From NCBI GenBank assembly GCA_002284915.1, contig CP015606.1, positions 1,178,001 to 1,242,000 of the forward strand: a stretch of 64,000 nt of DNA, given 5' to 3'. Source of the stretch: Actinobacteria bacterium IMCC26077. Lineage in GTDB: Bacteria > Actinomycetota > Actinomycetes > Nanopelagicales > Nanopelagicaceae. Of the stretch, positions 26,425 through 35,675 are shown in pieces (positions within the stretch are counted from its first letter, which is position 1; each line of letters opens with the position of its first letter). Position numbers and translations under genes: made by a program. Below the pieces are notes generated by a model. The model was not told the DNA's origin, did not search any database, and saw only the letters and a program-made list of their open reading frames with translations.

Positions 26425-27180
26425 ATGCTCGATATCGTCTGCGCGATTCTTCTCGGTTCGATTATGGGCGCTGCGCTTGGTTTGGTTGGCACCGGTGGCG
26501 CGATTTTGGCGGTGCCCGCCCTCGTCTATATTTTTGATTTCCCTGCGCTGCAAGCGACAACTGCTTCGCTTGTCATAGTTATCGCCGCAGCTCTGGTGAG
26601 CGCGCGAATTCGAGCCAAGGCGAAGCAGGTCGATTACCGAAAAGCTCTCACGCTCTGGTCGATTGGAATTGTCGGAAATGCGGTCGGCGCGGTTGCATCG
26701 AAAAGCGCCTCTGATTTCATTCTGCTAACCGGAATCTCGATCATCATTCTGGGCGCATCAATCAGTATGTGGATTCGATCCTTTCAAGGTGAGATCGTTT
26801 CGAAAGAACGACATCCCATCGTCTTACCCATCATGGGCACGCTTATTGGATTCATCGCTGGATTCTTTGGAGTGGGCGGCGCCTTTTTAGTCGTGCCTAC
26901 TCTCATATTAGCTTTTGGTGTTTCGGCGCATATCGCTGCGGGCACTGGATTAATCGTGATGTTGCTCAACAGCGCCACTGCGCTCTTAATTCGATTCGAT
27001 ACCTGGTCAAAGGTCGATTGGAGCACTCCGATTGTCGTTCTTATCAGCGCAGTAGTCGTTGCGTGGTTTGCAGCTGAAAAAGGAACTCGCCTAAAGTCAA
27101 AGAGTTTAGAGCGGGGATTTGCTGGCTTACTCCTTGCAGTTGGTCTCTTTACCTTTATCGAGACAGTTTTTCTCGCCTGA
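26425..27180 (+). CDS. TSUP (TauE/SafE) family permease
   Basis: The 251 aa integral membrane protein has about eight helices and the two-fold repeat of the TSUP family: GAALGLVGTGGAILAVPALVY in the first half (19 of its residues in the first helix and loop) and IAGFFGVGGAFLVVPTLIL in the second. Family members move sulfite, sulfoacetate or other organosulfur anions. The substrate here is not predictable because no sulfur metabolism genes adjoin it. Its last 26 bases overlap the convergent sensor kinase gene. Confidence 0.9.
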   Translation: MLDIVCAILLGSIMGAALGLVGTGGAILAVPALVYIFDFPALQATTASLVIVIAAALVSARIRAKAKQVDYRKALTLWSIGIVGNAVGAVASKSASDFILLTGISIIILGASISMWIRSFQGEIVSKERHPIVLPIMGTLIGFIAGFFGVGGAFLVVPTLILAFGVSAHIAAGTGLIVMLLNSATALLIRFDTWSKVDWSTPIVVLISAVVVAWFAAEKGTRLKSKSLERGFAGLLLAVGLFTFIETVFLA

Positions 27181-29467
27181 GAACCAGAATGTACTCTTGC
27201 TGGTTTTGAGGGTGGACAAACATCGTAATTTCAGGGTCGTTAATAACTTGGACAGTTTTTTGTAAGTCTCTGACTGAATCAGGAATAGCAGACCTGCATC
27301 GGAGTGAGAGCTCTGCATATCCATCATTAACTATTACTTGTATCGATGAACCATTTGGCACGTCACCAGTCACAGCAAAAAATCGCTCTCGAATTACAGG
27401 TGGAATTTCTCTCGCATCCTCGTCTCCATGAATTGATCTTACTTCCATCCACCGATTCTGAGCTGTCACTCGATTAACGAAATCACGGGCAAGAATGGTC
27501 AAGCCAGAGCTCGAAACTGGATCAATTTGAATCTCTGCACGCAATTGCGCGTCAATTCGACGCAGCGAATTTTGATATTCTATCGATAACATCCCAGAGC
27601 GCTCTATCAATTCCCGAATAATCTTTTGAGCTGAGGCGTCAAGTTCGAGGATTTTTTCAAATGCCGCATCATTGCGCTCGATTTCTGAAACGAGCTGCAG
27701 ATTTTTCTCATTTCGAGAATCTCGGAATGTCTCTACGCGTTCAAAGGTCTTGAATACCAAGGTGAAAACGATTGCTACAAATAGAAATGAAAAAAGCGTG
27801 TTGAGAATGGGAAAATTGAATATGAAATTACACTCTTGCGGTATTAAATCATGGAATGGCGCAACTAGATAAAGAAAGATTGGATAAGCAACGACGGCGA
27901 TTTGCCACTTACCCCACAATAAGATGATAAATAACCCATAGACTGCTGAGTTAATCACCCATTGAAAGGGCTGACTTTGAGTGCAAGTTAGTGGATCTAA
28001 TTGGAGAAAATGGATAATTGCCAATAAACCTATTGCAGTTATCGTACTTTCAATCCAGCCCAAACGTTTCATTCGAATGAATGTGGTTATGAGCAAATAG
28101 AGAAGAGCAATAAAGCCGATTGCCTGCGATATCCATTGTCCCGACCACCAAATCCCCAAAATTGGAAAAAAGAAGACGCCGGTCATGGCAGGCCCAAATA
28201 ATGTAAGCAGCGCCATGTAACGGCCTAGATTAATTGCGCTATACGAGGGAAAGTCAACGGTTCCGACATCTATCTCTGTGACAAATGTGGGGACATCGAG
28301 TTTGACTACTGCCCCTGCCCCCGTGAGTTCGTCACGAGTGGAAATGGTAAATGTCCCCCCTAATTCCCGAATCGATTTGGCCATAACAAGGCTAGTTCCA
28401 ATGCCATCAGATTTGGCAGCGACTGGTAGCAAACCATCGTCAGTAATTGTGATCTGCACCCGACCACGTTCGCGCTCTCCCGCGCTCTGATTTCTGTCGA
28501 TGCTCGTTCGCCAGTGAATCTCAATACTTTTCGCTGCCGCATGTTCCACTGCATTGCGTAGAGCCTCTTGGACCACGCGCTCGATAGTTTCTGCAACCTG
28601 AGCTTCAAGATGCAGATTGACACCTTGCGAGATAATTCGCACGCGTTCTTGTAATGCCGCGCTATCAATACCTGCGCGAATGGCAGCGATGACCGACCCC
28701 GAGCGACGTTCTTGCGCTTTTCTCATTATTAAACGATCCTGCTGAAACGAATTTTCAATCGCACTCCGCAAGTCTTGGATGGGGGTATCCTTTAAAGTTA
28801 ATAGCGAGCGAATCGTATTGAGCGTTGTTTCATGAACTCGAATCACGAGATTCCGCCACAATTTCTGACTCTCTTGGGATTTTTCTAACATTTTTATTTC
28901 CGCTTGCAAGTTTGTCATCTTGATATCATTCGATCTTGCACGAATGAGCATTCGATTCCAACCGTACAATGCGTAAACGCTCGTGGAAGCAATCATCAAA
29001 GTACTCACTGCTCCTCGACCAAGAAAGCTTCCAGAGCGAAGTAAGCTCACAGGAGCATAGAAATATGCCAAGAAATTGAAGAGGGCAAGGAAAGCAAGTA
29101 TCGATATGGTTAGCGTCCAGGTACGTTCGACAAAGAGAAAGACGACCGCCAGGGAAATTATCGCTATTAATACGCTCAACTGAAACCAGGCGATTGTGAC
29201 GAATGGGTCCACCACCAAGTAAATTGTTACGATTGCAAGTGACGCAGTCATCAACCACAGCCCAATTTCTCTACGTGCTAAAACCACTCCCGCGACAGCA
29301 ATAATCGCGCCAAGAATTACTACAGCTTGAGTGATCGGCGGTAGCTCTGCACCTCGACGCCATAACGCAAAAGCGAGCAGAAAATATCCGTAACTGATAA
29401 CAACAATGAGTAACGATCTACGCAATCTAATCAACGCGTCGACTTCCGAGGTTCGATGAATACTCAC
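27155..29467 (-). CDS. Sensor histidine kinase with duplicated membrane-kinase modules
   Basis: First half: about six membrane helices (residues 22-175), a coiled coil, the phospho-acceptor region RVHETTLNTIRSLL (H216, HisKA_3-like with E in place of the usual D) and a HATPase domain with N309 in EALRNAVEHA, TDDG at 346-349 and GIGTSL at 359-364. Second half: again about six helices (residues 420-580), a coiled coil, then a soluble domain (about 600-774) with a strand pattern like the first kinase (VIVNDGYAEL) but no acceptor His, N box or G box. The total of about 770 aa is near twice that of a NarL-type kinase. It is divergent from its probable response regulator. Residue numbers count from a TTG four codons upstream; the GTG used here has GGGGG just before it. 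Confidence 0.85.
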   Translation of the reverse strand: MSIHRTSEVDALIRLRRSLLIVVISYGYFLLAFALWRRGAELPPITQAVVILGAIIAVAGVVLARREIGLWLMTASLAIVTIYLVVDPFVTIAWFQLSVLIAIISLAVVFLFVERTWTLTISILAFLALFNFLAYFYAPVSLLRSGSFLGRGAVSTLMIASTSVYALYGWNRMLIRARSNDIKMTNLQAEIKMLEKSQESQKLWRNLVIRVHETTLNTIRSLLTLKDTPIQDLRSAIENSFQQDRLIMRKAQERRSGSVIAAIRAGIDSAALQERVRIISQGVNLHLEAQVAETIERVVQEALRNAVEHAAAKSIEIHWRTSIDRNQSAGERERGRVQITITDDGLLPVAAKSDGIGTSLVMAKSIRELGGTFTISTRDELTGAGAVVKLDVPTFVTEIDVGTVDFPSYSAINLGRYMALLTLFGPAMTGVFFFPILGIWWSGQWISQAIGFIALLYLLITTFIRMKRLGWIESTITAIGLLAIIHFLQLDPLTCTQSQPFQWVINSAVYGLFIILLWGKWQIAVVAYPIFLYLVAPFHDLIPQECNFIFNFPILNTLFSFLFVAIVFTLVFKTFERVETFRDSRNEKNLQLVSEIERNDAAFEKILELDASAQKIIRELIERSGMLSIEYQNSLRRIDAQLRAEIQIDPVSSSGLTILARDFVNRVTAQNRWMEVRSIHGDEDAREIPPVIRERFFAVTGDVPNGSSIQVIVNDGYAELSLRCRSAIPDSVRDLQKTVQVINDPEITMFVHPQNQQEYILVLRREKLSR

Positions 29468-29569
29468 TCCCCCTCTCAAAAAAATTATGTCAATAGTTTA
29501 TGCGCGCCAATTGATTACTGATACAGTTTTGTGGGCAAATAATTGTAAATTCTGAAACGGGTGGACTAT

Positions 29570-30238
29570 ATGACCGAGCCAAGAGTGGAAGTCGCCATAT
29601 TCGAAGACCACCCCATGATGCGTGAGGCCTTGGCCCATAACGTTGTCCTACATTTGCCTGACGCAAACATTTCGTACAAGGGAAGTTCAATTATTGATTT
29701 CTTCAAATACTTATCTGGGAATACCAATCCATTGGCAATTGATAACCCGAGGAATCTTTTTGCAATTCTCGATTTAGATCTCGGCGATGGCTCTCACCCC
29801 CTCGATAATCTTGCGCAATTGTGCGAGCGTAATATCGCCGTTATCGTGGTAAGCGCTCTTGCTAAACCACAAGTAGTTCGACTGATGCTCAAGAATGGTG
29901 CTGCGGCATTTGTAAGTAAGAATGCTGAAAGTGAAGCGCTTCGCGATGCAATTCTTGCCACAATCAAAGGCCAGCAGTACATGAGCCCCGACATTGCTGT
30001 AGCACTTCTCGCTGATGATGATGTCGCGGTTAATCTCTCTCAGAAAGAGCGAGAGGCTCTGGCGCTCTATGCGTCGGGGTTAAAACTTGACGCAGTTGCA
30101 GATGCTATGAGCATCTCACGGAGCACGGCCTCGGAATACATCCAGCGAGCCCGCAAGAAGTACACCAAGGCTGGCATTAGTCTTCCGACAAAAACCGACC
30201 TATATCGCCAAGCCCAGAAAGATGGCCTACTCAAGTAA
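29570..30238 (+). CDS. LuxR/NarL-family response regulator
   Basis: The receiver domain has the acidic pocket FEDHP (E12, D13), the phospho-acceptor D68 in LDLDLGDG and the conserved Lys in FVSKNAE. A C-terminal LuxR-type helix-turn-helix follows: LSQKEREALALYASGLKLDAVADAMSISRSTASEYIQRAR, cited by position near residues 150-190. The protein is 222 aa. The start ATG has GGGTGG six bases upstream; a GTG three codons earlier is an alternative. It is divergent from the duplicated kinase across about 100 bases of A+T-richer sequence, so the two most likely form a pair. Targets are unknown; the carotenoid operon begins 520 bases downstream. Confidence 0.92.
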   Translation: MTEPRVEVAIFEDHPMMREALAHNVVLHLPDANISYKGSSIIDFFKYLSGNTNPLAIDNPRNLFAILDLDLGDGSHPLDNLAQLCERNIAVIVVSALAKPQVVRLMLKNGAAAFVSKNAESEALRDAILATIKGQQYMSPDIAVALLADDDVAVNLSQKEREALALYASGLKLDAVADAMSISRSTASEYIQRARKKYTKAGISLPTKTDLYRQAQKDGLLK

Positions 30239-30248
30239 TCTTCTCTCC

Positions 30249-30737
30249 ATGAACGACTCTGTTGCCAACCATCCAAGTGTCGCTCGAGTGCGCCAGCGCC
30301 TCTCTGAATTGCATCTCACAGGCGAAGTGAGGATCCTCGCCGATTCTGCTCGCAGCGCCCGCGAAGCTGCCACTGCGCTCGATGTCGAAGTAGGACAGAT
30401 CTGTTCCTCCCTCATCTTCGTGAGTGCGGGTGCGCCAGTCTTGATCCTCACCTCTGGTCGCCACCGGGTAGATACCGAATTAGTCGCTCGGGAGCAGGGG
30501 TTGGCGCCCCTCGAGCGAGCCGATGCCGAGCTCGTCAAGAGCGCAACCGGTTTTGCTATCGGTGGCGTTGCTCCAATTGGCCACGCACATCCCATTACTA
30601 CTTATATAGACCGTGCCCTTGCGGAGTACCCGATCATCTGGGCGGCAGCCGGACACCCACACGCCGTCTTTCCCACCACCTTCGATGAACTCCTTCAAAT
30701 CACAGGCGCGGAGGCGATTGCGGTGGCAGTCGAATAA
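30249..30737 (+). CDS. YbaK/aminoacyl-tRNA deacylase-like protein
   Basis: The 162 aa protein fits the YbaK/ProX editing-domain family, which hydrolyses mischarged tRNAs (for example Cys-tRNA-Pro or Ala-tRNA-Pro). Visible family features are CSSLIFVSAGAPVLILTSG with its core strands, the Lys-containing ELVKSATGFAIGGVAPIGH, and WAAAGHPHAVFPTTFDEL near the C terminus. The GFAIGGVAPIGH glycine loop is diagnostic. The start is 10 bases after the response regulator stop. It may be cotranscribed with the regulator, but I see no functional link. Confidence 0.87.
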   Translation: MNDSVANHPSVARVRQRLSELHLTGEVRILADSARSAREAATALDVEVGQICSSLIFVSAGAPVLILTSGRHRVDTELVAREQGLAPLERADAELVKSATGFAIGGVAPIGHAHPITTYIDRALAEYPIIWAAAGHPHAVFPTTFDELLQITGAEAIAVAVE

Positions 30738-30759
30738 GAGAGTGCGAGAGAATCGCGCT

Positions 30760-31569
30760 ATGGCCGTGAAGTTCCAACGATTCGCTCCGACAATTGGGAG
30801 CGCTGCAAGTAATTCGAGGGACCCCATTCTGCTCGTCCACGGGATGGGCTCTGCCGATACGGTCTGGAAACCAATAATCCCTGCGCTTCAAGAAGTTGGT
30901 GAGGTGATCACCTGTCTTCTTCCAGGACACGGTGGCAATCCCCTCGATCCCCGAGTGGCGATGGATCCATATTCGCTCGCTGCCCATCTTCACGAAGAAA
31001 TGGCACGTGAAGGTATCGAAAATGCACATCTAGTTGGCAATTCACTCGGTGGTTGGATTGTCCTCGAACTTGCTGCCAACTTTCCACATCGTGTCGCTAC
31101 AGTCACCGCCCTCGCTCCAGCTGGACTCTGGCTCCACCCATTTTTCTTCCGCGTTCCAGGAACTGATGCTGCAAAACGTATTGCCAACCGCACCAATAAA
31201 TTCGCACATATCGGATTACGTCTTGGCATCGCGCAGCAATTGGGTTTCTCGCGCGTCTCACCACGATGGCGTGAGATTAGTTATGAGACGATGCTCGATG
31301 CCACCCGCGCGATGGCGATATCCGATGGTTACTACCCTGCATGGGATGCCTTCCTCGATAAGAGATTTGATACTCCAATTGATTCATCAATTCCCATCAC
31401 AGTCGTATTCGGCGAGAAAGATCGCACCTTACCAGCGAAGACGTGTCAGGAGCGCTCGCTAGTCTCACCACATGCCAGGTGGGTGATATTGGAGAACACC
31501 GGCCATGCACCGATGTGGGACAGTCCAAATGAGGTCGTCTCCGAAATTTCCCGGCATGTACTCATATGA
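30760..31569 (+). CDS. Alpha/beta hydrolase coupled to the carotenoid operon
   Basis: This 269 aa alpha/beta hydrolase has the oxyanion motif LLVHGMGSADTVW, nucleophile elbow VGNSLGGWIV (Ser in GNSLGG), acid residue in VFGEKDRTLP and catalytic His in ENTGHAPMWD. No signal peptide or membrane segment is visible, so it is cytoplasmic. Its stop overlaps the start of the crtA-like gene by ATGA, so translation is coupled to the carotenoid-tailoring genes. The substrate is unknown; an ester or lactone linked to carotenoid modification, or a simple housekeeping esterase, are both possible. The frame extends upstream but the ATG chosen has a GAGAGA motif and matches the family start. Confidence 0.85.
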   Translation: MAVKFQRFAPTIGSAASNSRDPILLVHGMGSADTVWKPIIPALQEVGEVITCLLPGHGGNPLDPRVAMDPYSLAAHLHEEMAREGIENAHLVGNSLGGWIVLELAANFPHRVATVTALAPAGLWLHPFFFRVPGTDAAKRIANRTNKFAHIGLRLGIAQQLGFSRVSPRWREISYETMLDATRAMAISDGYYPAWDAFLDKRFDTPIDSSIPITVVFGEKDRTLPAKTCQERSLVSPHARWVILENTGHAPMWDSPNEVVSEISRHVLI

Positions 31570-32261
31570 AAGTCACATTATTCATCTGGCGGGTGCGTAC
31601 CACTGCAATTCCATACGCAATCATTCGAATGGCTCTAGATCGTATCTACTTACGTAAAGTCTCTGGAATCTCTTTTTACAAACTTCTCGGCACTGGCAAA
31701 GGTGAGACTTTCACCCCGCGCGATGCTGATCTCTGGCAATGGGGATTACTCGTTGTGGGAAGCGATGAAGCAATCGCTGAGGTCAAACGCTCTCGCTTAA
31801 TAAATCGGTGGCAGATGCGCGCGACTGAAAGTGCCACCTTCGAACTGGCACCGCTCTCCTCACATGGGCAATGGGCAAATCAATCACCATTCACGATGGA
31901 TTCGTCGGCTAAGAATTACTCTGGTCCAGTTGCGGCAATCACGAGAGCTCGAATCAAATGGTCGAAGAATCTTCGCTTCTGGCGCGCAGTTCCACCTGTC
32001 ATCACCGAGCTCGACAAAGCGCCAGGGTTGATGGCAGCAATCGGAATCGGCGAAGCGCCTATCGGTCTGCAAGGCACCTTCTCGCTATGGCGCGATAGCC
32101 AATCGCTCCGAAATTTCGCATACAAGACGAGTGCGCATAACGATGCCATCGCTGCCACCAAGGAGATTGGCTGGTACCGCGAGGAGCTATTCGCTCGCTT
32201 TGCGGTGGTATCAGCAACGGGCTCCGTAAATGGAATCGATGTAAGTCATACGGCAGACTAG
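31566..32261 (+). CDS. crtA: CrtA-like carotenoid monooxygenase (spheroidene monooxygenase family)
   Basis: CrtA enzymes are heme-containing oxygenases that oxidise C-2 of acyclic carotenoid ends to a keto group. The 231 aa protein has the family hallmarks KLLGTGKGETFTPRDADLWQ, WQMRATESATFELAPLSSHG, FWRAVPPVITELDKAPGL, GIGEAPIGLQGTFSLW and WYREELFARFAVVS. Length is close to proteobacterial CrtA. It is cotranslated with the hydrolase before it and lies 5 bases before the cruF-like gene. In this setting it most likely adds the C-2' oxygen that the downstream glycosyltransferase would use. The reaction is inferred from the family and neighbours. Confidence 0.85.
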   Translation: MKVTLFIWRVRTTAIPYAIIRMALDRIYLRKVSGISFYKLLGTGKGETFTPRDADLWQWGLLVVGSDEAIAEVKRSRLINRWQMRATESATFELAPLSSHGQWANQSPFTMDSSAKNYSGPVAAITRARIKWSKNLRFWRAVPPVITELDKAPGLMAAIGIGEAPIGLQGTFSLWRDSQSLRNFAYKTSAHNDAIAATKEIGWYREELFARFAVVSATGSVNGIDVSHTAD

Positions 32262-32266
32262 CGACC

Positions 32267-33070
32267 GTGTCGGTCCATAACTACAAGCCAAGACGAAGAG
32301 AGCGGCGCGGTCCAAGCCGCTGGGAGACGCTCGTCTTATGGGGAACTCTTGCGGTAGCGATCGCGTTTCAAATCTCCTATCCACTTCTCGAGGGTGAAGC
32401 GCTGCGCCTGATCACTATCGGTACCGTCTATGCCGCTGCGCTTACCACGCTCGTCAATGCCTACCTCTCACATGGCTCGACCTATCTCCTTCGTTACTTC
32501 GTTATCACCTTTACCTTCGGCCTGGTCATCGAACAGATTGGCGTCACTACTGGATGGCCATTTGGCAGTTACCAATACGACCCATCTCTCGGCGCATTCC
32601 TGTTTCATATCCCGCTCGTCGTTCCCTTTGCCTGGATGATGCTGACCCATCCAATTCTGATTGCTGCGCGCGCGCTTTCCACGAAGTGGGCAGTGGTGAT
32701 TGGTGGCTTCGGATTGATGGCCTGGGATCTCTTCCTTGATCCACAGATGGTGAGCGCTGGTCGATGGAGTTGGAGCGACACCTCACCGCATGTTCCCTTT
32801 CAACCTGAGATTCCACTCTCCAATACCTTCGGTTGGCTCCTCGCTGGCATCCTTTTAATGTCAATTCTTCAGCTCTTGTTACCAGTCGAGCGGCGGAAGA
32901 ACGGCGTCAATACCAATGCCGGTGATGCCCTGCTCATGTGGACCTGGTTCTCTGGAGTAGTTGGCAACATCTTCTTCTTCGACCGTCCTGAAGTCGCCTT
33001 TGTTGGCGGCACCGCCTTCGCGATATTTCTCTTTCCCTACTTATTCAAGCGCTGGATCAATCGCCAGTGA
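32267..33070 (+). CDS. cruF: CruF-like carotenoid 1',2'-hydratase (DUF422 family)
   Basis: This integral membrane protein of 267 aa with about seven helices belongs to the Caroten_synth/CruF family, which hydrates the psi end of monocyclic carotenoids at C-1'. Conserved stretches are GWPFGSYQYDPSLGAFLF, the helix HIPLVVPFAWMM and WDLFLDPQMVSAGRWSW, whose Asp residues are likely active-site residues. It starts with GTG and its stop shares GTGA with the next gene. Adjacent crtA-like, cruG-like and crtD-like genes support a role in making a hydroxylated, glycosylated carotenoid. Confidence 0.87.
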   Translation: MSVHNYKPRRRERRGPSRWETLVLWGTLAVAIAFQISYPLLEGEALRLITIGTVYAAALTTLVNAYLSHGSTYLLRYFVITFTFGLVIEQIGVTTGWPFGSYQYDPSLGAFLFHIPLVVPFAWMMLTHPILIAARALSTKWAVVIGGFGLMAWDLFLDPQMVSAGRWSWSDTSPHVPFQPEIPLSNTFGWLLAGILLMSILQLLLPVERRKNGVNTNAGDALLMWTWFSGVVGNIFFFDRPEVAFVGGTAFAIFLFPYLFKRWINRQ

Positions 33071-34158
33071 CCACGATCATCTATGTCTTTGGATTTCTTC
33101 TCGCAATCCACTCGATAATTAACGCGCTCTTACTTCGTCGCCCTGGTAATCGTGAACTCGTTCAGGAAAAAATAGCAATCCTCATTCCAGCTCGTAATGA
33201 GGCGTTAAATATCGAAGAGTGTCTGACCGCCGCCCTAGCCCAAAAGCACCTTGCCTCCTTCCATCTCTTCGTACTCGATGATGGCTCTACCGATGACACC
33301 AATGCGATCATCCGGTCCATGGTTGCCAAAACAGATCGATTGACTCTTCTTCGCGGCCAGGAGCTGCCAGAGGGATGGACTGGCAAGAATTTCGCATGCT
33401 GGCAATTGGCAAATGCGGCGGCGCAAACAGGAGCTTTTGATTACTTGGTTTTCATCGATGCTGACGTTCGCTTAGGAGACGGTGCGGTCGCAAAGTCAGT
33501 AAATGCGCTCCAGAAACTTTCATGGAAGTTCATCTCTCCCTATCCTCGCCAAATTGCTCGGAGTTGGAGTGAGTGGTTGATTCAACCCTTACTGCAATGG
33601 AGTTGGATCACTACGCTCCCACTACGAATCGCAGAGCGATCACTGAGACCAGAGCTCACTGCAGCCAACGGTCAATTCTTCATCCTCGAACGCGCTGCCT
33701 ACTTCTCGGCAGGTGGTCATAAGGCCATTCATGAAGAGGTTCTTGACGACATTCATCTTGCGCGGCAGATGAAACGGAATGGATTCCGTGGGAACGTCAT
33801 TGATGGCAGTGGTATTGCTACCTGCCGGATGTACACCTCCTGGCGCGAGCTGCGCGATGGCTACACGAAATCGCTATGGTCTGCCTTTGGTTCAATCCCA
33901 GGCGCGATTCTTGTCATGATTTTCCTCATCTCGCTCTACATATTTCCTGCGTTTATTGCGCTGCAGGGGCTTAGTTGGGGTGTAGCTCTTTTCCTATTCG
34001 CATTTATCTCTCGATTGATCTCTGCAGTGCGCAGCAGGTGCTCGATCACTAGCGCGCTCTTTCATCCCATAGCGATAAGTATCTTGTGCTACTTGATTGT
34101 CAGATCGTGGTGGCTCAAGCGAAAGAATCGCTTAGAGTGGAAATCGAGGGCGCTGTGA
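33067..34158 (+). CDS. cruG: CruG-like carotenoid glycosyltransferase (GT2)
   Basis: This family 2 glycosyltransferase of 363 aa has one N-terminal membrane helix and about three more at the C terminus. Sugar-nucleotide motifs are AILIPARNEALNIEECL, VLDDGSTDDTNAI, FIDADVRLG (DxD-like) and EEVLDDIHLARQMKRNGF, followed by CRMYTSWRELRDGYTKSLW. This last combination is typical of CruG, which glycosylates the 2'-hydroxyl of myxol-type carotenoids. Translation is coupled on both sides by GTGA overlaps. The sugar donor cannot be predicted. Confidence 0.83.
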   Translation: MTTIIYVFGFLLAIHSIINALLLRRPGNRELVQEKIAILIPARNEALNIEECLTAALAQKHLASFHLFVLDDGSTDDTNAIIRSMVAKTDRLTLLRGQELPEGWTGKNFACWQLANAAAQTGAFDYLVFIDADVRLGDGAVAKSVNALQKLSWKFISPYPRQIARSWSEWLIQPLLQWSWITTLPLRIAERSLRPELTAANGQFFILERAAYFSAGGHKAIHEEVLDDIHLARQMKRNGFRGNVIDGSGIATCRMYTSWRELRDGYTKSLWSAFGSIPGAILVMIFLISLYIFPAFIALQGLSWGVALFLFAFISRLISAVRSRCSITSALFHPIAISILCYLIVRSWWLKRKNRLEWKSRAL

Positions 34159-35675
34159 GCGAAGACTCAAAGCCACAATCGAAACGCGCAATCATCATTG
34201 GTGGAGGCTTGGGTGGTTTGAGCGCTGCCATCAGGCTGGCAAAAAATGGTTTCGCTGTGCACCTCTTCGAAGCAGGTAGCGAACTCGGTGGAAAATGTCG
34301 CGTAGAGAAATTCGACGATCACTCCTTCGATACCGGCCCCTCGCTGCTCACCTTGCCCGCGGTCTATCGAGATCTCTTTCTGAAGACTGGTTCCCCGCTC
34401 GAAAGCGAGCTCACGCTACTGCCGGTCGACCCCGCTTTTGATTATTACTTCCCTAGCGGGAAGCGTTTGACGCTGCCCAATGCTTCGCGTGCAGGCGTGA
34501 CCGAGGCGATAGCAACGACCTTTGGTAGCGCGAGCGCACAGGAGTGGAGCGCATTGATGGATCGCGCTGAGGCGATGTGGGATGTTTCGCGAGAGCCATT
34601 TATCGAATCTGAGTTACGCGGGTTCTTACCGCTATTGAAGCGACCAGGATTTCTCCGAAGCCTTCGGACGATTGCCCCTTTTACTTCACTCCGGGCGATG
34701 GCCAAGCGCTATCTCTCGACCCCCGAATTGATCACCCTCATCGATCGTTATGCGACGTACACCGGCTCTGATCCACGTCGGGCACCAGCAGTCCTACTCA
34801 CTATCGCATACATCGAACAGGTATTTGGCGCCTGGCATATTGAAGGTGGCATTGGAGAGCTCGGCTCAGCGATGGAACATCGAGCGCGCAAGTTGGGCGT
34901 GGAAATCTCGTGCAGCTCGCCAGTTGAAAGGATTACGACCACTGGTAACCGAGCAACAGGTGTGCAACTCAGAGATGGACGATCCTTCCACGCTGATTAC
35001 ATCGTCAGCAATGTCGATGCGCAAATTACCTATGAGAAATTAATCAAAGATCCCACATTGGCCAAAGGCGAACGAGCAAAATTGCGACGAGCAACTCCTT
35101 CGTTCTCAGGCTTCTATTTACTGATTAACCTCAACGGTCTTAATGACAATCAAGCACATCACACTGTCTCATTCCCCGCTAACTACGATGCCGAATTCGA
35201 TGCGCTTTTTCATAGCCTCCAACCAGTTGTCGACCCCACCTTGTATATCTGCTCTCCGCGAGATCGCTCGATGGCGCCGGCAGACTCGGAGTCGTGGTTT
35301 GTTTTAGTCAATGCACCGCGACATAGCAACGGAAGCGATGGATTCAATTGGCGTACCCCAGGGGTTGCGGAGAAATATCGCGACCATCTCATCGAGCTCC
35401 TCGTTAAGCGCAACTTGCTCGATTCATCTCGAATCAAGTCGCTCCAATTTCGTACGCCAGCAGATATCGAGGAGCTTTACAGCGCACCTGGTGGCTCGAT
35501 CTACGGCAATTCCAGTAATGGTGCAAGCGCCGCGTTCAATCGCGCCGCCAATCGCTCCCCCATCGAGGGGTTATTCCTCGTCGGAGGTTCAGCGCACCCA
35601 GGAGGTGGCGTTCCGTTGGTAGGTTTGAGTGGAGAGATAGTTGCTAACGCAATAACTTCCGCGCCGTCACGCTAA
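34155..35675 (+). CDS. crtD: CrtD-like carotenoid 3',4'-desaturase (CrtI family)
   Basis: This FAD-dependent phytoene-desaturase-family enzyme has the dinucleotide motif AIIIGGGLGGLSAAIRL and the second FAD motif FDTGPSLLTLPAVY. The C-terminal family motif LFLVGGSAHPGGGVPLVGLS is also present. It is 506 aa from the GTG that overlaps the cruG stop (GAGGG upstream); an ATG 23 codons earlier lies inside cruG and is unlikely. Because a separate CrtI is encoded 2.5 kb away with crtE and crtB, and because this copy is grouped with CruF- and CruG-like genes, it is best read as CrtD, adding the 3',4' double bond after hydration. A ketolase of the CrtO type cannot be fully excluded. Confidence 0.82.
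   Translation: MSEDSKPQSKRAIIIGGGLGGLSAAIRLAKNGFAVHLFEAGSELGGKCRVEKFDDHSFDTGPSLLTLPAVYRDLFLKTGSPLESELTLLPVDPAFDYYFPSGKRLTLPNASRAGVTEAIATTFGSASAQEWSALMDRAEAMWDVSREPFIESELRGFLPLLKRPGFLRSLRTIAPFTSLRAMAKRYLSTPELITLIDRYATYTGSDPRRAPAVLLTIAYIEQVFGAWHIEGGIGELGSAMEHRARKLGVEISCSSPVERITTTGNRATGVQLRDGRSFHADYIVSNVDAQITYEKLIKDPTLAKGERAKLRRATPSFSGFYLLINLNGLNDNQAHHTVSFPANYDAEFDALFHSLQPVVDPTLYICSPRDRSMAPADSESWFVLVNAPRHSNGSDGFNWRTPGVAEKYRDHLIELLVKRNLLDSSRIKSLQFRTPADIEELYSAPGGSIYGNSSNGASAAFNRAANRSPIEGLFLVGGSAHPGGGVPLVGLSGEIVANAITSAPSR

Follow-up and report, generated by a model that had tools for sequence, protein, structure and literature searches.

The DNA analyzed here (the window, i.e., the whole stretch of 64,000 nucleotides from Actinobacteria bacterium IMCC26077, contig CP015606.1, positions 1,178,001 to 1,242,000) encodes a sensor histidine kinase which, as judged from profile alignment and structure prediction, is an internal duplication of one module consisting of six membrane helices (6TM), a coiled coil, a DHp hairpin and a CA domain. 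We consider it probable that the protein represents a tandem kinase family, widespread in actinomycetes, in which a catalytic half is joined to a permanent non-catalytic partner half and each chain has one active site. It is put forward more tentatively that these kinases form an obligately asymmetric class and are not homodimers, i.e., that the catalytic half folds onto its own pseudokinase half, that phosphorylation takes place in cis at a single site and that the signal is received through the six membrane helices of the other half. The open reading frames of the kinase (27155–29479, minus strand) and of the neighboring regulator (29561–30238, plus strand) are both intact. The listed start of the kinase is a TTG at 29479, giving 774 amino acids; the homologue from the same genus (L043) has a GTG preceded by a purine-rich stretch, and from this comparison the GTG at 29467 is the likelier start. 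The parts of the kinase are as follows.

27155–29479, minus strand: tandem sensor histidine kinase/pseudokinase, 774 residues from TTG or, probably, 770 from GTG at 29467
28955–29446, minus strand: module 1 membrane part, residues 12–175, six helices predicted in the AlphaFold2 model, with the conserved W98
28703–28954, minus strand: module 1 coiled coil and DHp, residues 176–259, acceptor H216 (28832–28834) in the motif H-E-T-T-L-N-T; H216 and N221 invariant; DesK is the top fold match
28289–28693, minus strand: module 1 CA (HATPase_c), residues 263–397, with N box E305/N309/H313, G1 box D347-x-G349 and G2 box G359-x-G361, from Pfam and conservation
27755–28240, minus strand: module 2 membrane part, residues 414–575, six helices predicted in the model, in register with module 1; two cysteines (Cys499 and Cys550) lie in loops predicted to be extracytoplasmic
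27530–27754, minus strand: module 2 pseudo-DHp hairpin, residues 576–650, without acceptor His; Arg647 invariant in 39/39 homologues
27170–27502, minus strand: module 2 pseudo-CA (GHKL fold), residues 660–770, without N box, G boxes and ATP lid; predicted local distance difference test (pLDDT) 89 when the soluble part of module 2 is modeled alone

The full-length kinase was predicted with AlphaFold2 as a monomer from a 19-sequence alignment (mean pLDDT 77, predicted template modeling score (pTM) 0.59). In this model six membrane helices are followed by a long helix, a DHp hairpin and a CA fold, and the same order is then repeated over residues 414–770. The helices of module 1 span residues 12–45, 48–67, 72–89, 97–116, 121–141 and 152–228, the hairpin helix spans 234–259, and from there to residue 397 the order is helix-strand-helix-strand-strand-helix-strand-strand. 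When the two full modules were aligned with hhalign, using 39 homologues, the E-value was 6.3e-15 and the probability 98.4% over 305 columns, with both the membrane and the soluble parts in register. As the halves matched strongly only when full modules and 39 diverse sequences were used (soluble domains alone, with few sequences, reached a probability of 9–16%), controls with reversed sequences were run. Reversing one half across the halves gave 10% and 17%, while two reversed comparisons within a half gave 52–66%, although only over stretches of 16–32 columns. For the membrane parts alone the probability was 53% (3% when reversed), and homology of the membrane parts therefore rests on the full-length register and on the pairing of W98 with W507. 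The same profile alignment pairs H216 with D614, E217 with A615, N221 with K619 and H313 with D706. A hidden Markov model (HMM) of module 2 from the freshwater set picks up 20-odd distant relatives in their C-terminal half, and it also matches module 1 of distant relatives in register (independent E-value 5.7e-4 for L103 and 0.003–0.006 for L102, L105, and L106). A preliminary description of the locus had proposed two membrane-kinase modules in one chain, the second kinase-related and devoid of acceptor His, N box and G box; self-alignment and structure prediction, suggested there as a check, bear out both points.

Module 1 has the features of a GHKL kinase. Pfam HATPase_c matches the protein in residues 296–397 only (29.1 bits against a cut-off of 26.4, E 1.4e-6), the N, G1 and G2 boxes are present, and DesK leads the Foldseek matches (top 5iuj and 3ehj, E 1.5e-5) with a DesK-like DHp-CA arrangement. 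H216, N221, E305, N309, and H313 are invariant in 39/39 homologues, G349 and G361 are kept in 38 of the 39 and D347 in 35, and the position after the acceptor His is Asp or Glu in 35/39 (E217 in the window protein), a carboxylate which has been reported as critical for autophosphorylation (PMC5231405). By structure and motif the modeled DHp of module 1 is HisKA_3/DesK-like. The HisKA_3 motif is defined by the acceptor His, an acid and a phosphatase Gln or His at His+5 (DxxxQ/H; PMC11502775), the phosphatase residue of DesK being Gln193 (PMC5231405). The window kinase (HETTLN) has the His and the acid, whereas His+5 is Asn instead of Gln or His, and the H box of the family reads H-[E/D]-x-x-L-N-T with Asn at His+5. 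Of the proposed HisKA_3/HATPase assignment the ATPase part stands; the Pfam HisKA_3 model (PF07730) does not report the window kinase up to an E-value of 10, and in the window genome it finds one gene, which is a different one. The kinase is therefore called HisKA_3-like and not a HisKA_3 member.

The kinases of genus g12 (L044:5983-8319, L045:236-2560, L046:74-2398) have, in module 1, Ala at His+1 (HAVTLNT), and their G1-box Asp is replaced by His (THDG). They keep the N box and the Asn at His+5, and are found beside the same carotenoid operon as in the window where the flanks allow this to be checked. From their sequences, these proteins are possibly phosphatase-only, with a pseudokinase in both halves.

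Module 2 resembles a kinase in fold only. Its fold is matched by DHp-CA structures of histidine kinases (AgrC, DesK, CusS, CpxA, and ZraS), and the VIA-align list is filled by kinases and other GHKL folds, DivL among them; against the ATP-binding domain of PrrB the alignment covers 112 residues at 3.0 Å with a Z of 10.0, which is middling by the tool's own warning. When the module 2 profile was compared with all PDB sequences the four best matches were all SpoIIAB, a GHKL protein, and all were weak (E about 0.04). In the module 2 sequences of 19 homologues Pfam gave chance matches only, with no HATPase_c or other kinase-like domain among them. R647 in the second DHp helix is the one invariant residue among those tested in this half. 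Two cysteines found in module 2 only, C499 and C550, are invariant in the 19-sequence freshwater set and not conserved in the large-genome family f91; overall they are present in 24/39 and 23/39 homologues, respectively. The pair is a possible disulfide or metal site.

The second half had been described as decayed, and the kinase as unusual. Neither description is supported, if unusual is taken to mean a one-off, as the same architecture is found in many actinomycete families and module 2 is under purifying selection. Full-length two-module relatives were found at 17 loci in the contig search, mostly in freshwater metagenome-assembled genomes, and also in the window's own family and other families of the class (e.g., G901, G871, G908, G943, G894, and G785). 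In family f91 the proteins are about 770–960 residues long with a clear C-terminal module 2, and the tandem architecture recurs across many actinomycete families at about 20% identity. This breadth argues that the tandem architecture is old and has been retained. Distribution was not judged from the phylum-wide search made with the first alignment, whose only matches were generic ATPase domains. The ratio of non-synonymous to synonymous substitution rates (dN/dS), computed only between close pairs with measurable dS, was 0.16 (L045/L046), 0.16 (L044/L045), 0.02 (L050/L052), 0.16 (L054/L055), and 0.32 (L047/L048) for the soluble part of module 2 and 0.03–0.27 for that of module 1. With values of 0.02–0.32 module 2 is under constraint and not decaying. 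It is true that all catalytic motifs of module 2 are gone and that it is usually the less conserved half, as would be expected if it were tolerated debris of a duplication with no function of its own. We nevertheless find such debris very improbable, given that length and predicted fold are kept across many families, and given the invariant R647, the Cys pair in 24/39 homologues and the dN/dS values; simple decay was rejected on conservation and dN/dS.

Other arrangements of the same parts were observed. A search for single-module homologues, also suggested earlier, turned up a relative of 428 amino acids in G913 (L098/L152) whose regulator gene, of the same subfamily, overlaps it on the downstream side. 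A second paralogue is encoded immediately after a complete tandem kinase, at L058:4115-6016 and as a 640-residue open reading frame in L089/L047:7884-9803; it keeps the DHp with the acceptor His and has lost the whole first CA domain, and by its sequence would therefore be phosphorylatable only by another protein. A mirror-image tandem kinase is found at L149:1532-3427 and in the window genome itself (G000:C1:422682-424424, L169:1183-2925). Its first half has membrane helices and a coiled coil without acceptor His or ATPase, its second half has an HGSLQ/HGPVI H box and an ATPase-like domain, and a response-regulator gene lies upstream. Both polarities of tandem kinase are therefore represented in the window genome. 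The contigs L043 and L059 are publicly titled Bifidobacterium breve metagenome-assembled genomes, and these labels look wrong; the L043 kinase is 57% identical to that of the window, which comes from a freshwater-type actinobacterium with a small genome, and L043 falls in the window's genus in the genome set.

The kinase gene is transcribed divergently from the regulator gene, which is followed by a co-directional operon. The features of this part of the window are as follows.

29561–30238, plus strand: NarL-type response regulator, 225 residues (ATG at 29570 also possible), with D16, D71, S98, K120 and a GerE helix-turn-helix (HTH)
29480–29560, no strand assigned: intergenic region of the divergent kinase and regulator genes, presumed promoter region under regulator control; no consensus promoter found
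27181–30248, no strand assigned: kinase-regulator cassette as delimited by a genome of the same genus without it, in which tauE and ybaK adjoin
30249–35675, plus strand: operon after the regulator, with ybaK (tRNA_edit), an alpha/beta hydrolase, CrtA-like, CruF-like, a CruG-like glycosyltransferase and a CrtI/CrtD-family desaturase, names backed by Pfam and NCBIfam at family level only

The distance from start to start is 81 nucleotides (TTG to GTG), or 93 with the kinase start at 29467, close to the 100 bases given before. The regulator has the receiver residues D16, D71, S98, and K120, invariant in 15 homologues, although Pfam Response_reg scores 25.8 bits, below the cut-off of 30.2; GerE scores 25.4 bits against 23.5, consistent with a GerE/LuxR HTH, and the HTH has the conserved tail KYTKAG...TKTDLYRQA. 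A homologue of this regulator (28–69% identity) adjoins the kinase, usually divergently, in nearly all freshwater-type loci checked; these regulators belong to one NarL-type subfamily. In contigs L045 and L046 the sequence starts with the kinase, and a neighbor on that side would lie outside them; the flanks of most f91 loci are too short to show one. Two regulator genes lie side by side or flank the kinases at L047:4325-5689, L048:4064-5401, L051:4038-5594, and L058:453-1088; in L047 and L058 the more divergent of the two is without most of the conserved HTH tail.

The boundaries of the cassette are given by comparison with a genome of the same genus (G024, 95% complete, without the kinase), in which the tauE stop is 22 nucleotides from the ybaK ATG and the operon follows whole with 73–85% identity to the window. 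In the window the 3.07-kb cassette lies exactly between tauE and the carotenoid operon. Within genus g12 the cassette is missing from G012 and G049, in which tauE is followed by the hydrolase, and present at the corresponding position in L044, where the next genes are hydrolase, CrtA-like, CruF-like, CruG-like, and CrtI-family genes. In the g4, g6, and g14 genomes that have the kinase it is not near cruF. As sister genomes without the cassette keep the operon and other genera carry the cassette elsewhere, the operon does not depend on the cassette, nor is the system bound to carotenoids generally. In the window the regulator stop is about 10 nucleotides from the ybaK ATG, in the same direction, and the kinase gene converges on tauE; the operon has therefore probably been placed under the promoter of the regulator, which in the window lineage is the operon's likely first gene. 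Of the suggested carotenoid link it is thus the local part that survives, the regulator directly preceding the operon in two genera. That position would also fit a dedicated carotenoid or light regulator responding to light or to a carotenoid intermediate. We think this unlikely, however: the kinase is devoid of a chromophore domain, the operon stands without a cassette in sister genomes, the cassette lies apart from cruF in other genera, and most family members are found in other contexts.

The kinase probably arose when a DesK-like 6TM-DHp-CA module was duplicated and the two copies were fused. Module 1 would be the enzyme, which binds ATP, phosphorylates its own His216 and hands the phosphate to the neighboring regulator, possibly with a phosphatase activity through the Asn at His+5. 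Module 2, with its fold kept, would be a permanent non-catalytic dimer partner and is probably the sensory or allosteric half. The two DHp hairpins would form an intramolecular four-helix bundle in which H216 is phosphorylated in cis by its own CA domain, and the second 6TM unit, holding the Cys pair, would carry or gate the signal. It is tempting to speculate that this signal is the state of the membrane, or an extracytoplasmic redox or metal cue at the Cys pair. The phosphorylated regulator would then probably bind the region between the two genes and act on its own gene and, by read-through, on the carotenoid operon.

Several observations weigh against such a scheme. The full-length model was made as a monomer with a pTM of 0.59, and it is equally possible that module 1 pairs with its counterpart in a second molecule. 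Pfam HisKA_3 is silent on the kinase, autokinase activity is not conserved everywhere as the g12 proteins have Ala at His+1 and His for the DxG Asp, a consensus promoter was sought between kinase and regulator and none was found, and the carotenoid operon persists without the cassette in sister genomes. The most serious competitor is a dimer of tandems, in which module 1 pairs with module 1 as a trans-acting homodimer and the module 2 copies pair as a signal-receiving platform. Homodimers are the working form of known histidine kinases, HisKA_3 members such as DesK included (PMC5231405), and the L058/L089 paralogue, with acceptor His and without module 1 CA, would need another polypeptide for its phosphorylation. 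This model gives no reason, on the other hand, why a full fused second 6TM-DHp-CA copy was kept across very distant lineages, and we hold it to be possible and less likely than self-pairing. The protein could also be mainly a phosphatase of the regulator, with module 2 controlling regulator access to the HExxxN motif. The invariant Asn (39/39) at the position of the HisKA_3 phosphatase Gln/His, the HAxxxN motif and broken DxG with Asn kept in the g12 relatives beside the same operon, and the L058/L089 paralogues without any CA1 are all in line with this. It is nonetheless doubtful, as the window protein has preserved the acid at His+1 and every box of the ATP site, and Asp or Glu is kept at His+1 in 35/39 homologues.

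Tandem or fused pseudo-dimer histidine kinases were not described in the literature searched, which excluded most subscription journals; the family is broad in actinomycetes and appears to be undescribed. In Pfam it shows up only through the ATPase domain of its first half. Histidine kinases, DesK for example, have been described as homodimers that become asymmetric during activation (PMC5231405); a fused and permanently asymmetric kinase would allow the roles of the protomers (sensing, catalysis, and cis or trans phosphorylation) to be tested half by half, as with adenylyl cyclases. Locally, the window suggests how a carotenoid operon can come under a new regulator when a two-component cassette is inserted.

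Among known systems DesK, the membrane-fluidity kinase of Bacillus subtilis and a HisKA_3 member, is similar in having several membrane helices without a separate sensor domain, a coiled coil, a DHp-CA and a NarL-type partner. DesK is however a single-module homodimer with HDxxxQ, whereas the window kinase has HExxxN and a pseudokinase copy of the whole module. The G913 kinase has one membrane-DHp-CA module with the motif HDTVLATL and a regulator 34% identical to that of the window; being single-module it likely represents the ancestor-type arrangement and not the same protein. TodS shares with the window kinase two kinase modules in one polypeptide, but is described as a seven-domain phosphorelay with two autokinase domains that senses via a PAS domain (PMC4321377), while in the window kinase a single module is competent, and there are 12 membrane helices and no PAS domain. 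DivL-type pseudo-histidine kinases likewise use a kinase fold for regulation, but DivL is a separate polypeptide of another family and the window pseudokinase is fused to its catalytic partner. A parallel in architecture is found in the membrane adenylyl cyclases, in which 6TM, a helical part and a catalytic domain occur twice in one chain and the related catalytic domains form a pseudo-heterodimer; the six-helix mycobacterial ancestor Cya must dimerize to form what the mammalian cyclase forms in one chain (PMC9433096). The cyclases belong to another enzyme superfamily, of which the window kinase is not a member, and the parallel is architectural only. If self-pairing is correct, the tandem kinases would be the two-component counterpart of these cyclases.

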